Shown here piece by piece: positions 22,490-37,309 of a stretch of DNA of 37,515 nucleotides; position 1 is the stretch's first letter; every line of letters begins with the position of its first letter. The stretch lies in IMG/VR virus record IMGVR_UViG_3300023171_000028, positions 1-37,515 of that record. The stretch is one strand, 5' to 3'. The translations under genes and the position numbers were made by a program. The notes beneath the pieces were generated by a model, which was not told where the DNA came from, did no database searches, and saw nothing but the letters and a program-made list of their open reading frames with translations. This DNA is from a virus.

Positions 22490-22999
22490 TTATCGCTCCT
22501 TCGCTGCGGCCTGCTGCTTGGCGACCCACTTTTGCAGGGCCTTCAGCTGCTCGGCGACTTCGTGGTAGGTGCCGTAGTTTTCGGCGGTGACTTCGGCGAC
22601 GGCAGAGAGCGCAACGCCGGAGGCGGCGTCATCAGAAGCGTCGGCGGGGCCGGGAACTTCGTTGCGGGCTGCACCGTCGTGCACGCGGACAAAGCCGCGA
22701 GGCACAATGCAGGCAGAATCAGCTTCAGGTGTGACATAGACGGGCACCTCCTTTACGATGGTTTTGGCTTTCTCGCGGACTACGCGCACGCGGTCCACAT
22801 ACTCGGTGATGACCTTGGTCGTGACACGCTCGGCGCGGGCTTCTGCTTCGGCCAGCTTGATGGCCTGCGCCGCGTTGGCGGCGTTCCAGTCGTCGCGCAC
22901 GGAGCGCGCGCCCGTGGCGTGGCCCCACACGAAGACGGCCGCCAGCAATGCCAGCGGCCCCAGAATGCGCAGTGCCCACTTCGCGAGGATCGGGTTCAT
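22490..22999 (-). CDS. Rz: i-spanin Rz
   Basis: The inner-membrane spanin, 169 residues. An N-terminal type II membrane anchor occupies about residues 8-27 (WALRILGPLALLAAVFVWGH). A long charged periplasmic helix follows (about 45-85, Ala/Glu/Arg/Val with a KTIVKEVPVYV end), then a C-terminal helical segment. It would fuse inner and outer membranes in the last step of lysis together with Rz1. The Rz1 gene is entirely nested in it in another frame. The ATG overlaps the holin-candidate stop (ATGA). Confidence 0.93.
   Translation of the reverse strand: MNPILAKWALRILGPLALLAAVFVWGHATGARSVRDDWNAANAAQAIKLAEAEARAERVTTKVITEYVDRVRVVREKAKTIVKEVPVYVTPEADSACIVPRGFVRVHDGAARNEVPGPADASDDAASGVALSAVAEVTAENYGTYHEVAEQLKALQKWVAKQQAAAKER
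22543..22737 (-). CDS. Rz1: o-spanin Rz1 lipoprotein, nested in Rz
   Basis: A 64-residue lipoprotein encoded in a different frame inside Rz. The signal sequence (MSHLKLILPALCLAALSAC) ends in a lipobox with lipidated Cys19. The mature part is short and Pro-rich (13 Pro among about 46 residues), as usual for Rz1. A strong AAAGGAGGT precedes the ATG inside Rz coding sequence. Nested Rz/Rz1 is the lambda-type arrangement, so this identification is secure. Confidence 0.93.
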   Translation of the reverse strand: MSHLKLILPALCLAALSACTTVQPATKFPAPPTLLMTPPPALRSLPSPKSPPKTTAPTTKSPSS

Positions 23000-23259
23000 T
23001 CTTCACTCTCCTTTTTGCGCTCCACAGCCGCCTTGACTGCGACCGCTGCACCGATGGCGGCGATGATGGTGGACAGGCCGATGCCGAACGCCTCGTGGGC
23101 GAATGCCACCTTGTTGACCACCACGTCCCACGCCGACAGCGTGAGGTATTCGATGCCGCCCAACAGTGCCAGCACACCGCCAACGATACGCACGACCTCG
23201 GGGGTGCGGTTGTCGCGTTCGCTGAAAATGTGCAGCAGCATTGCGCGGAACTTGCTCAT
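22996..23259 (-). CDS. Holin candidate (two transmembrane segments)
   Basis: The likely start is ATG 23259, sharing a base with the lysozyme stop (TAATG) and preceded by AGAGGAAG; an earlier ATG at 23277 lacks a spaced site. The 87-residue product has two hydrophobic segments, about 22-44 (VVRIVGGVLALLGGIEYLTL) and 53-75 (AFGIGLSTIIAAIGAAVAV), separated by a polar stretch, and a charged RKKESEE end. Size, topology and position between endolysin and Rz are those of a holin. No sequence family is certain. Confidence 0.85.
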   Translation of the reverse strand: MSKFRAMLLHIFSERDNRTPEVVRIVGGVLALLGGIEYLTLSAWDVVVNKVAFAHEAFGIGLSTIIAAIGAAVAVKAAVERKKESEE

Positions 23260-23687
23260 TATTTCTTCCTCTGCCATTCACCGGTTTTCATCTGATCGGC
23301 CATGCGCTGCGCGCGGCCGGGCGTTTGCTTGGCCCACAGACTGAGCATCATGTTCTTCCCGGCCTCGGCGTACTTGCCGGCTTGGATGAGCTTCAGCGTG
23401 TTCGTGAAGTCCAGCAGGCCATCCAGCCCCATCTGGAATGCCATGCCGATCAGCACGGCGCGGCGCGGCTCGTTGAGCGCCTTGGCCCACGGCAGCGCCT
23501 TGTCCACTTCCGCGCCCTTCAGCGCGATGCGGTTGTCGAGGATGAAATTGATTTCCTCGGGCCGCAGATGGCCGCCTTTCCGCTTGTCGATAAGGATTCC
23601 GACGCCGATGGTCCAGAAACCCAGATGATCCTGATAGGCGTAAGGAATGTTGCCCTCTTCGGCGATGAGCTGTTCGCGTAGGTTCAT
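23259..23687 (-). CDS. Endolysin, T4-type lysozyme (GH24)
   Basis: A 142-residue muramidase. The catalytic triad matches T4 lysozyme in both motif and numbering: Glu11 (AEEGN), Asp20 (YQDHLG) and Thr26 (WTIGVG). Later helices contain FQMGLDGLLDFTNTLKL and a WAKQTPGRAQR end typical of GH24 (where GRA/RR precedes the C-terminus). It has no signal peptide, so it would need the holin for export. The ribosome site (GGAAATGG) is weak, consistent with coupling to the metallophosphoesterase gene through an ATGA overlap. Confidence 0.95.
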   Translation of the reverse strand: MNLREQLIAEEGNIPYAYQDHLGFWTIGVGILIDKRKGGHLRPEEINFILDNRIALKGAEVDKALPWAKALNEPRRAVLIGMAFQMGLDGLLDFTNTLKLIQAGKYAEAGKNMMLSLWAKQTPGRAQRMADQMKTGEWQRKK

Positions 23688-33942: not shown

Positions 33943-35418
33943 TTACGCCATTGGGAGGCCACGGCGCAAGGGCTTGTTCCACTTCGTGCCCCCGGTGCTG
34001 CCAAACCGCGCGCTGAAGCCGTCCGAAGCGAGGCACAGGAGGAAAGCATCGGCATAATCGGGGCTGCGGCGCAGGCGCTTCTTCGTGACTTCCTTCGGCT
34101 CGGCCAGCATTAGGCCGTTGCTGTCGGCGATCTGATATTTGACGCTCACGAGGTCCGCCACGAGCGTTTCGCAGCCCAGCGGGAGGCTTCCCGTGCCGCT
34201 GGCGAACCACTCGCGGCCCTTGAACCACAGTTCGGTGCGCAGATTCTTGTACTGGCCCTTCAACGCGGGCGATTCGCTCACGTTGATGGCCCGGGCGGGC
34301 AGGCCCAGCTCGCGGAGGCGATCCGCGACGCCCGCGCCGAGGCCGATGGCATCGACGTTGATTTCCTCGGGCCGATCCGCGAACACGCAGGCATCCCATT
34401 CGGCCTTGACGCGCCCTGCGAGCTGCATCGTGTCCAGCTTGACCCACTTCTGCGGGATATGGCGCACCACGGTGCCCTGCATCTTGACCAGCACGCTGCT
34501 GTCGTCGCCGAATCGGGCGCAGTCGAGGCCCCAGATGTGCGGTGCGCTCGGCGATGGCTCAATTTCGCGCCCTACGGCCGCCTCCGCCGTTTCCAGCGGG
34601 ATGATGGTGTCGTCGTCGCTGTTCGGGAACTCGCCCAGTACACGCACACGGTAGGCGTTTGACAGCTCGCCGTAGGTATCGGCCACTTCCCGCACAAAAT
34701 CCTTGCTGACGCGCTTGGATTCCGCGCTGTTGACGCGCAGCGTCCACCAGCGGTCGCGGTTTTTGTTGTGGGTGTCGTAGAAGAACCCCGAGGTGCGGGT
34801 CGGGTTGCCCAGCAGCAGCGTGGTCGCCGCGTCGCCGGACATGGAACCGATGGCCGCTTCGAAGATGGCTTCCGGCACACCGGATGCCTCATCGACCACC
34901 AGCAGCACGTTGTCGGCGTGGACGCCTTGCAGCGCCTCGGGCGTTTCCGCGCGAGCGGTACGGGCCGAGATAAACGCCTTGTCCGGGGCGTTGATGAGGT
35001 CGATGCGGTCGCCCTTGACGTTCAGTAGGCCAGCCCACGCTTCCGGCAGCACGGCGATCCAGTGCTTGACCTCGGCGAACAGGGCATCGAACAGCTGCGC
35101 GCTGGTGGGCGCGGTCACGACGACCTTGACTGTGTAGCGGGTCAGCAGATACCAAATCATGATCCACGCTGCGCAGGTAGACTTGCCGACACCGTGGCCG
35201 GAGCGCACGCTGATGCGGCGCTCGCCCTTGCTCACGGCCAGCAGCACTTTCTGCTGCCAGTCATCGGGCTCGACGCCCAGCACTTCGGTCACGAACAGGT
35301 ACGCACCGTTGGGGCCGCGATAGCGGGCCAGTGCGTCGAGGAAGGGGTTTTCGGTGTCTGCGGGCCGCGCCGGCAAATGCGAGGCAATGGCACTGGCAAG
35401 TTGGGTATGCTGCGTCAT
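33943..35418 (-). CDS. terL: Terminase large subunit
   Basis: A 491-residue motor of DNA packaging. The ATPase part has Walker A SGHGVGKS (73-80) and Walker B VLLVVDEA (171-178, catalytic Glu177), with a coupling TLLLGNPTRTSG segment (200-211). The RNase H-type nuclease has Asp299 in GLDCARFGDD, Asp355 in NVDAIGLG and a late acidic SPDYADAF. I placed the start at MTQHTQ (35418). A frame extension to TTG 35460 overlaps the promoter region and is not convincing. The ribosome site is weak. No small subunit gene was recognised nearby. Confidence 0.95.
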   Translation of the reverse strand: MTQHTQLASAIASHLPARPADTENPFLDALARYRGPNGAYLFVTEVLGVEPDDWQQKVLLAVSKGERRISVRSGHGVGKSTCAAWIMIWYLLTRYTVKVVVTAPTSAQLFDALFAEVKHWIAVLPEAWAGLLNVKGDRIDLINAPDKAFISARTARAETPEALQGVHADNVLLVVDEASGVPEAIFEAAIGSMSGDAATTLLLGNPTRTSGFFYDTHNKNRDRWWTLRVNSAESKRVSKDFVREVADTYGELSNAYRVRVLGEFPNSDDDTIIPLETAEAAVGREIEPSPSAPHIWGLDCARFGDDSSVLVKMQGTVVRHIPQKWVKLDTMQLAGRVKAEWDACVFADRPEEINVDAIGLGAGVADRLRELGLPARAINVSESPALKGQYKNLRTELWFKGREWFASGTGSLPLGCETLVADLVSVKYQIADSNGLMLAEPKEVTKKRLRRSPDYADAFLLCLASDGFSARFGSTGGTKWNKPLRRGLPMA

Positions 35419-35488: not shown

Positions 35489-35665
35489 CCGGTGAGGGCC
35501 TGACTGGTGTCCGTCGTCGCGCCACGCCATGTGGACGCGACCGCCGCAACGCGGCTCAGTTATCCCCCACTGCCGGGGTTTTCGGTGATGACCCGCACCG
35601 GGCACTTGGGTGGCTCTGATGGCCGCCGGCTGATCCCACCGCGATAGGCTCGTGGCCGGCCAAAC
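35489..35665 (-). other. Structured non-coding stretch between tRNA and terL
   Basis: No supported gene lies here; an 80-codon frame through it is an artefact that runs into the tRNA. On the minus strand there are successive stems: CGGTG/CACCG (35583-35600), CCCC/GGGG (35565-35578), GCCGC/GCGGC (35543-35555) and GTCGCG plus CCAC pairing with GTGG plus CGCGAC (35516-35541, one bulge). All precede the terminator at 35467-35488. It may be a small RNA or the tRNA 3' leader, or a packaging site next to terL. Confidence 0.45.
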
Positions 35666-35743
35666 TGGTGGTGAGGGGTGGATTCGAACCACCGACCTTG
35701 GGGGGTATGAACCCCGCGCTCTGCCAGACTGAGCTACCTCACC
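35666..35743 (-). tRNA. tRNA with CAT anticodon (Met or Ile2)
   Basis: Acceptor GGTGAGG pairs with CCTCACC, followed by an encoded A-CCA (35666-35669). The D arm is GCTC...GAGC, and the T arm GGTGG/CCACC has a TTCGAAT loop. The anticodon loop reads TTCATAC, giving CAT. The anticodon stem is CGGGG/CCCCC with a C-C mismatch at its first pair (27-43), and the variable loop is six bases, making 78 bases in all. Met versus lysidine-type Ile cannot be told from sequence alone. Confidence 0.88.
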
Positions 35744-35750
35744 GATGCGG

Positions 35751-36377
35751 TTACTTCGTGGCGCGTGCCATCACTTCAGGGCTGAAGTTCAGCGGCAGCG
35801 CAACGGCGATCTTTGCGTAGCTACCGTCCTGCGTCAGATTCAGCAGGCCCGACAGCACCGCGACGACTTCGCCGGCATCGTTGAAGATGCCAGAGCCGGA
35901 ATCGCCGAGGAAAACGTTGAGGTCAAACATGGTGAGCGGCTGGTTCGGGCGATCCCGGTCGGTGCCGATCATCTGGCCGGTGCGCAGCACGTCGCGCAGA
36001 CCAGCGGGGTTACCCCAGATGCGCACGGTGTCGCCGGAGCTGACGGCCTTGCGGGCCAGCTTCACCGGGGTGCCCATCTTGCGGTCCACCCAGATGATCG
36101 TATGGTCGTTGCCGTCGTCTTCGCGCTTCATGATCGTGACCGCGCTGCCGTTGACGGTCGGGTCGCCGGAGCCGGCGCGGAAGCAATGGGTCGCGGTCAG
36201 GATCGCGCGGGAGCCGATGACGGTGCCGCTGCAAACGCCGTTGGACCAGTCGAGCCGAACGGTCGCGGCGTGGGCGCGGCCCAGCGGGCTGCGGTCGCGT
36301 GCGGCATCGGCGTTTGACGGTACGCACGCCGCGAGGGCAAGCACGAACATCACAAAGGCGGATCGTAGGACGTTCAT
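35751..36377 (-). CDS. Trypsin-like serine protease lipoprotein
   Basis: A 208-residue secreted protein. The signal MNVLRSAFVMFVLALAAC ends in a lipobox with lipidated Cys18, so it should sit in the inner or outer membrane facing the periplasm. The protease fold shows all catalytic residues: His64 in TATHC, Asp91 in DHTIIWVD and Ser160 in GDSGSG. Cys49 and Cys65 are 16 residues apart around His64, like the conserved trypsin disulfide Cys42-Cys58. It may cleave a cell-surface or incoming-phage protein. A GGGAGCC site precedes the ATG, which overlaps the upstream stop. Function is inferred; the family is clear. Confidence 0.93.
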   Translation of the reverse strand: MNVLRSAFVMFVLALAACVPSNADAARDRSPLGRAHAATVRLDWSNGVCSGTVIGSRAILTATHCFRAGSGDPTVNGSAVTIMKREDDGNDHTIIWVDRKMGTPVKLARKAVSSGDTVRIWGNPAGLRDVLRTGQMIGTDRDRPNQPLTMFDLNVFLGDSGSGIFNDAGEVVAVLSGLLNLTQDGSYAKIAVALPLNFSPEVMARATK

Positions 36378-36562
36378 GGCTTGGCTCCCGGGGTGGTGAT
36401 TCCAGTGTACTGCTGGGTGAACTCGGCGTCAATGGCGCGGTACGCCGTCAGGCCGAGCGCGAGGGTAATCAGCAGGCCGGTGAGCGAGCTGAAGGGGTAC
36501 AGGTGCAACGCGGTCGCCGCGCCCGACGCGGCTGTCAACAGGGCGAGGGTCCGGGCGGTCAC
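36374..36562 (-). CDS. Small membrane protein, GTG start (62 aa)
   Basis: The start is GTG 36562, overlapping the recombinase stop (GTGA) and preceded by GGAGG. Two short hydrophobic segments appear, about 3-19 (ARTLALLTAASGAATAL) and 24-42 (FSSLTGLLITLALGLTAYR), then an acidic-polar tail (IDAEFTQQYTGITTPG). A membrane-spanning hairpin is likely. I know no family. It is co-transcribed with the recombinase and the protease lipoprotein and could assist the latter at the envelope, but this is only context. Confidence 0.8.
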   Translation of the reverse strand: MTARTLALLTAASGAATALHLYPFSSLTGLLITLALGLTAYRAIDAEFTQQYTGITTPGAKP

Positions 36563-37242
36563 GACTGTGCCTCCGCCCGGGCGATGATCTTGCCTATGGT
36601 GACATGGCTGACCTTCGCGTCCGGGTGCATGCTGGCGATCAGCGACTTGACCTGCCGCAGCGACATACCGGCGCGGTGGCCGCGCAGGATGGTCGCGATG
36701 ACCGCCTGCTGGTCGTCGTCTTTCTCCAGCACCGATTCCTTGCCCTGCCCGACGCGGCGGTAGCCGTAGGGCACGACGCCGCCAAGGTAGCCGCCGGCTG
36801 TGCGCTTGGCCGTCTTGCCGGCGGAGACGCGCTCCGCGATCCGGGTGCGCTCCAGCTCCGCGAACGAGGCCATCATGTTGAACATGACCTTGCCCACGCC
36901 GTCGCCGTTGACCGGTTCGGTGGAGAGGTCCATCAGGATCAGGTCCACGCCGCGTGCCTTCAGCTCTTCGGCGACGTTGATCGCATCGCGCGCACTGCGG
37001 AACAGGCGGTCCAGCTTTGCGGCGACGATGGTGTCGCCCCGGCCGGCACGCTGCATCAGTTCGAAGCCGCCCGGGCGGTCGGCGAGGGGGATGGACCCGG
37101 ACACGCCGGGATCGGTGATGATGGTCGGCTCGGGCAGGCCGAGGCCGACGATCAGCGCGGCGATGCGCTTGACCTGATCGTCCAAGCTGGTGCCGTTGGT
37201 CTGCTCTGCGGTCGAAACGCGGGTGTAGGCGAAGGTGGTCAT
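36559..37242 (-). CDS. Serine recombinase (resolvase/invertase family)
   Basis: A 227-residue site-specific recombinase. The catalytic domain has Arg8 and Ser10 in YTRVST, the KLDRLFR motif (76-82, active-site arginines), ASFAELERTRIAERVSAG (125-142, dimer E-helix) and a GGYLGGVVPYGYRR junction. The C-terminal 45 residues resemble an HTH DNA-binding part. The size is that of small resolvases/invertases, not of large serine integrases (over 450). Possible jobs are resolution of dimers, plasmid-like prophage maintenance or DNA inversion. AGAGGAT precedes the ATG, and a strong promoter lies upstream. Confidence 0.94.
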   Translation of the reverse strand: MTTFAYTRVSTAEQTNGTSLDDQVKRIAALIVGLGLPEPTIITDPGVSGSIPLADRPGGFELMQRAGRGDTIVAAKLDRLFRSARDAINVAEELKARGVDLILMDLSTEPVNGDGVGKVMFNMMASFAELERTRIAERVSAGKTAKRTAGGYLGGVVPYGYRRVGQGKESVLEKDDDQQAVIATILRGHRAGMSLRQVKSLIASMHPDAKVSHVTIGKIIARAEAQS

Positions 37243-37280: not shown

Positions 37281-37309
37281 AGTATCGGCCGCATCGCTGC
37301 CCGTGTCAA
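37281..37309 (-). promoter_or_regulatory. Sigma70-type promoter of the recombinase/protease cassette
   Basis: Consensus -35 TTGACA (37304-37309) is followed after 17 bases by GATACT (37281-37286). The recombinase ATG is about 30 bases past the expected start of transcription. The promoter separates this cassette from everything else. Confidence 0.8.

Follow-up and report, generated by a model that had tools for sequence, protein, structure and literature searches.

Genes and features at the locus

The stretch of DNA analysed here, referred to as the window, covers the 37,515 nucleotides of IMG/VR record IMGVR_UViG_3300023171_000028. The record is that of a phage, with genes for the terminase large subunit (TerL), portal protein, major capsid protein, DNA polymerase and primase. 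Upstream of TerL lies a unit in the order recombinase, 62-aa membrane protein, protease and tRNA. The features of this unit, and those of the window to which it is compared below, are the following:

37281–37309, minus strand: promoter-like sequence TTGACA-17-GATACT upstream of the recombinase gene (consensus match only)
36559–37242, minus strand: serine recombinase of the resolvase/invertase type, 227 aa (PF00239, E 4.3e-30; phrog_125)
36374–36562, minus strand: 62-aa protein with two hydrophobic stretches, its gene sharing 4 nt (ATGA) with the start of the protease gene
36404–36432, minus strand: promoter-like sequence TTGACG-17-TACACT upstream of the protease gene, within the gene of the 62-aa protein (consensus match only)
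35751–36377, minus strand, stop codon included: lipoprotein serine protease P0001, 208 aa (open reading frame, Pfam, PHROG, AlphaFold2)
36324–36377, minus strand: predicted lipoprotein signal peptide, lipobox LAAC, with Cys18 at 36326–36324 and Val as the +2 residue
35856–36233, minus strand: Trypsin_2 domain, residues 49–174 (Pfam PF13365, E 3.5e-13)
36186–36188, minus strand: catalytic His64 (sequence and family alignment)
36105–36107, minus strand: catalytic Asp91 (sequence and family alignment)
35898–35900, minus strand: catalytic Ser160, in the motif GDSGSG (sequence and family alignment)
35666–35743, minus strand: tRNA with a CAT anticodon, directly past the protease stop codon
35465–35490, minus strand: terminator-like hairpin in the gap between the tRNA and TerL (such sites are not above chance overall)
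33943–35418, minus strand: TerL (phrog_2, phrog_5902)
23259–23687, minus strand: GH24-type endolysin lacking an anchor at its N terminus; the protease is 12 kb away (phrog_7)
22490–22999, minus strand: Rz-like i-spanin of the phage (phrog_8821)
about 22737–22543: Rz1-like small lipobox protein, nested in another frame of the Rz-like gene

The protease reading frame does not arise by chance, since it matches both Pfam and PHROG profiles and its GC content by codon position (0.63/0.50/0.85) is that usual for genes of this phage. The scores were 51 bits for PF13365 (curated cut-off 27.6) and 43.3 bits for PF00089, Trypsin (E 4.9e-11, curated cut-off 20.6), and the 'protease' profile PHROG 9683 was matched at E 8.5e-17. 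The gene product is a serine protease of trypsin fold, with catalysis predicted from its residues. An AlphaFold2 model calculated from an alignment of ten sequences had a mean pLDDT of 88.6. The top PDB matches of this model in Foldseek were DegS structures without PDZ domain (TM about 0.70, E 1.9e-10), so that the protein has the catalytic domain of the HtrA fold. Sequence matches include DegS and MucD, and the C-terminal half resembles HtrA proteins. Pfam gave no match to a PDZ domain, the C-terminal domain of HtrA and DegS, in the 208 residues, and the NCBIfam degP and degS models scored far below their cut-offs. According to this confident model, the catalytic domain would be DegS-like and devoid of PDZ.

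The N-terminal sequence (MNVLRSAFVMFVLALAAC) consists of an n-region, an h-region and, at its end, a standard lipobox with its cysteine at position 18, which is the make-up of a bacterial lipoprotein signal. On this basis the protease is an exported lipoprotein with predicted lipid attachment. In E. coli, lipoproteins stay in the inner membrane when an aspartate follows the lipobox cysteine; in no family member with this cysteine is it followed by aspartate. The anchor is most likely inserted in the outer membrane, the enzyme facing the periplasm.

Consecutive genes of the unit overlap by 4 nt, GTGA between the recombinase and the 62-aa protein and ATGA between the latter and the protease, suggesting that the three proteins are probably co-translated. 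An earlier note on this sequence had assigned the protease its own promoter and cassette. The cassette is supported by the 4-nt overlaps and by the terminator-like hairpin at 35490–35465. The promoter fared less well, because the site at 36432–36404 matches the consensus at 9 of 12 positions and lies inside the upstream gene, and because promoter-like sites are about as frequent in the window as in shuffled sequence (6 vs 2.8 and 1 vs 2.4, not clearly commoner). The phage's own lysis genes, namely the endolysin, a 93-aa holin-like gene and the Rz-like gene with its Rz1-like frame, are found at 22.5–23.7 kb, and the protease is not among them.

MW202879.1, the closest phage record to the window by TerL, likewise has a serine recombinase ahead of its TerL region (966–1634, 34% identity); viral contigs yielded no close relatives of the window recombinase. 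None of the 16 TerL-related loci tested for a tRNA had one. A possible origin of the record's right end from host DNA adjoining the tRNA was considered and dropped, because the serine resolvase of MW202879 is similarly placed and the protease and recombinase share the codon usage of the phage.

Distribution and conservation of the protease family

Single-sequence scans with the window protease gave no match in viral or genome contigs, and its family was reached only once the first distant relatives had been aligned with it. One relative (39%) on a viral contig provided the alignment that led to a Luteibacter prophage and to a gammaproteobacterial metagenome-assembled genome (MAG). The extended search found the protease in 6 of 233 genomes in the family of the Luteibacter genome, in two more of its order and in about 47 viral contigs. 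This amounted to 55 loci in all, 37 of them non-redundant once near-copies were removed. The 37 loci are prophages and viral contigs whose named hosts are Gammaproteobacteria, mainly of the Luteibacter family. Matches on plasmids turned out to be HtrA-type or other proteases and not members of the family.

The protease was found in none of 23 phage records related to the window by TerL, several of them near full length. It is thus an accessory gene, in line with the earlier view that it falls outside the usual structural and replication genes. Cultured phage records contained no close relative of the window protease. The family is missing from cultured phage collections, or too divergent to be detected in them, which accounts for its being filed only as 'protease'.

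Across the 38 family members aligned, C49, H64, C65 and D91 do not vary, and S160 is present in all 36 members that reach this region, so that the triad is kept in every complete copy. C49 and C65 are 16 residues apart, which is the spacing of chymotrypsin Cys42 and Cys58. The lipobox cysteine is common to 28 of the 38 sequences and the lipobox is kept across the main branch of the family. The earlier note had read a complete triad, a trypsin-like cysteine spacing and a lipobox in this protein; all three are confirmed, with the coordinates and residue numbers that it gave, and the description as a phage-encoded trypsin-like lipoprotein agrees with the profile matches and the phage nature of the record.

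Nine outlying loci lack the lipobox and occur in other contexts. Five of them form a side branch located in the gap between portal and scaffold genes (L141, L142, L144, L147 and L153). Two copies depart from the rest near the active site: in the MAG prophage (L089, 901–1389) the stretch with the catalytic serine is missing, and in L110 (9638–10195) GVSG replaces GDSG.

Lysis genes and in-frame TAG codons in the relatives

A GH24 or GH19 endolysin lies upstream of the protease within 2 kb, and mostly within 400 nt, in 25 of the 37 loci (a raw adjacency count). Adding two loci in which other endolysin types were recognized upstream by eye (L121, L157) and L089, in which an Rz-like gene precedes the protease, gives 28 loci with a lysis context. 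An Rz gene is found near the protease in 17 of the 37 loci, often after it. In a representative set of loci, PHROG and Pfam searches independently confirmed the lysis genes (endolysins phrog_7 and phrog_181, Rz phrog_1327, Rz1 phrog_4306, holin phrog_920). TerL is usually located 1–2 kb downstream, the terminase genes coming next in most loci. The lipobox tracks this context, being present in 27 of 28 lysis loci vs 0 of 9 others. Within the lysis operon the protease typically occupies the endolysin/Rz gap, often with 4-nt overlaps; members of the family are found inside holin-endolysin-Rz operons. The family usually belongs to a lysis cassette, made up of holin, endolysin, small membrane protein, protease and Rz/Rz1, that precedes the terminase genes. 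No lysis-cassette protease was described in the literature searched.

In a tree of the 38 sequences, the window protease pairs with that of L133 with a support of 94/87, just below the mark for strong support. In L133, one tight operon with 4-nt overlaps runs from the endolysin through a small membrane gene to the protease and a further gene that is Rz-like by eye. In L105, a 62-aa membrane gene overlaps the protease by 4 nt. The 62-aa gene of the window is the positional counterpart of the small membrane genes of L105, L133, L158 and L118. Homology between these small membrane proteins and the 62-aa protein found no support, as no sequence similarity is detectable, and we regard the likeness as positional. 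The window thus retains the pair of small membrane gene and protease, as well as its site upstream of TerL. The lysis association of the window protease is drawn from these relatives, since the endolysin, holin-like, Rz and Rz1 genes of its own phage are 12 kb away.

The Luteibacter prophage has in-frame TAG codons in its protease, lysis, terminase, portal and scaffold genes, and none in its replication genes (initiator, DnaB and NinB type, named by eye). Ten non-redundant loci have a protease with in-frame TAG, like the adjoining lysis and capsid genes. Over 19 loci, lysis and late frames contained 150 TAG in 34,701 codons and upstream frames 28 in 21,630; the frames were chosen by length, and some of the TAG counted may be real stops. 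The clearest TAG column of the protease alignment is Gln in 14 relatives.

In-frame TAG occurs in the lysis and morphogenesis genes of L088 (7385–15608), L107, L109, L114–L120 (including L118), L131 and L136, the replication genes of these prophages and contigs being largely free of it. These codons are probably read as Gln. A tRNA with a CTA anticodon separates the lysis genes from TerL in L106, L114–L117, L120, L123–L126, L129–L132 and L135–L139. Recoding of lytic genes by suppressor tRNAs has been proposed earlier (Borges et al. 2022, as cited in PMC13059738); the literature searched had no account of TAG recoding in Luteibacter-family phages. A TAG-bearing protease should be produced at full length only alongside the suppressor, which is expected in lytic growth; for those phages, a role in lysogeny is accordingly less likely. 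Together with the position in the lysis operon, the in-frame TAG of the relatives points to late lytic expression. Expression outside lytic growth, put forward in the earlier note, is possible and is not the option that these data best support. In the window, the CAT tRNA is located, like the CTA tRNA of the relatives, in the interval from protease to TerL, one of 44 genes terminates in TAG, and the main genes of the phage contain no in-frame TAG.

Possible roles of the protease

Lysis by phages of Gram-negative bacteria is usually described in three steps, carried out by holin, endolysin and spanin. Since its relatives usually belong to the gene set that bursts the host, the protease probably cuts envelope proteins at lysis. 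The best reading, to which we give a probability of about 0.5, is that of a late lysis-cassette protease anchored as a lipoprotein in the outer membrane. This reading builds on the domain, the conserved catalytic residues and lipobox, the gene neighbourhood and the TAG-carrying lytic gene set of the relatives. From these we infer the outer-membrane location, the late expression in the window phage and the substrate. The protease would be produced late in infection and would cleave envelope proteins as the cell breaks open. The cleavage could help to dismantle the outer membrane, or rid cell debris of receptors to which progeny would otherwise adhere. Counting against this reading, many members of the family retain spanins of their own and so have no need of the protease in that capacity, and the nine outlying loci have other contexts.

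In the main rival reading, which takes up the proposal of the earlier note, the gene is an accessory 'moron': its lipoprotein product, made by the prophage or at an early stage of infection, would cleave a surface receptor and block superinfecting phage, or would alter the host surface in some other way. We regard it as possible, at roughly half the weight of the lysis reading. It owes its rank to the location of the window copy in a separate unit, apart from the main lysis genes, and to the lysis-terminase junction being a site of accessory genes; in lambdoid phages this junction carries accessory lipoproteins such as Bor. The envelope anchor and the patchy distribution, both among the TerL-related records and among the genomes of the family, fit such a role, as do the promoter-like site just upstream and the terminator-like site downstream. 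However, chance can account for the number of promoter-like sites in the window as a whole, the protease of the relatives lies in the lysis operon with 4-nt overlaps, and its in-frame TAG matches that of the lysis and late genes. Dedicated processing of a phage lysis protein, either by freeing a SAR endolysin or by maturing a spanin or holin, seems unlikely. The protease does come close behind the endolysin in many loci, many of these GH24 endolysins begin with a hydrophobic N-terminal stretch, and in phage Mu a SAR endolysin can require the helper gp25 (PMC9239132). But in L107 and L131 the protease is found behind a GH19 endolysin, in L121 and L157 behind other types, and the endolysin of the window has no anchor. 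We set aside SAR-endolysin release as a general role because several of the partner endolysins are not SAR endolysins.

The fold calls to mind a constitutively active DegS-like protease that would cut an anti-sigma factor or misfolded periplasmic proteins and thereby tune envelope stress during infection. The closest solved structures and the DegS and MucD matches, together with the missing PDZ domain, speak for it. DegS operates from the inner membrane, whereas the lipobox of the protease lacks the residue for retention there, and a position in the lysis cassette does not require a role in envelope stress; we hold this rival to be slightly less probable still than the processing one. A virion maturation or structural protease is the most improbable of these roles. 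It is suggested by the side branch in the portal/scaffold gap, but this branch has no lipobox, and the proteins of the main branch and the window bear a signal for export as well as a cysteine pair fit for periplasmic conditions.

If the lysis reading is right, the conserved membrane-anchored protease of the lysis operon suggests a further enzymatic step, acting on envelope proteins, or alternatively a protection of progeny from receptor debris. Tentatively, and with the odds somewhat against it, some Gram-negative phages may have a proteolytic lysis step carried out by an outer-membrane lipoprotein protease made with the endolysin and spanins. Outer-membrane or receptor proteins would then be cut during lysis and virion release.

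The protein can be compared with several known systems. It shares with DegS and HtrA the trypsin-like fold and an expected periplasmic location, but a lipoprotein signal replaces the transmembrane anchor, PDZ is absent, the trypsin-like pair C49–C65 is present and the family occurs in a phage lysis context. Like the outer spanin Rz1, it is an outer-membrane-type lipoprotein linked to a lysis cassette upstream of terminase genes. Rz1, however, is a short protein rich in proline whose gene is nested in Rz or overlaps it in a different frame, whereas the window protein is a 208-aa enzyme; moreover, many protease cassettes also carry Rz/Rz1, and a separate Rz1-like frame exists in the window. Lambda Bor, T5 Llp and Cor are likewise phage-encoded envelope lipoproteins, Bor being encoded near the lysis-terminase junction and Llp masking a receptor, but they are not enzymes, unlike the window protein with its complete protease active site. 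The 'releasin' gp25 of phage Mu is also an accessory membrane protein of the lysis region, but it is cytoplasmic, tethered to the membrane, and not known to contain a protease domain (PMC9239132). Finally, PHROG 9683 (category 'other') matches 9 of 10 family members, and its annotation gives no function past 'protease'. The association with lysis cassettes and the lipoprotein nature are added here, and the neighbourhood turns an orphan 'protease' gene into a testable lysis hypothesis.
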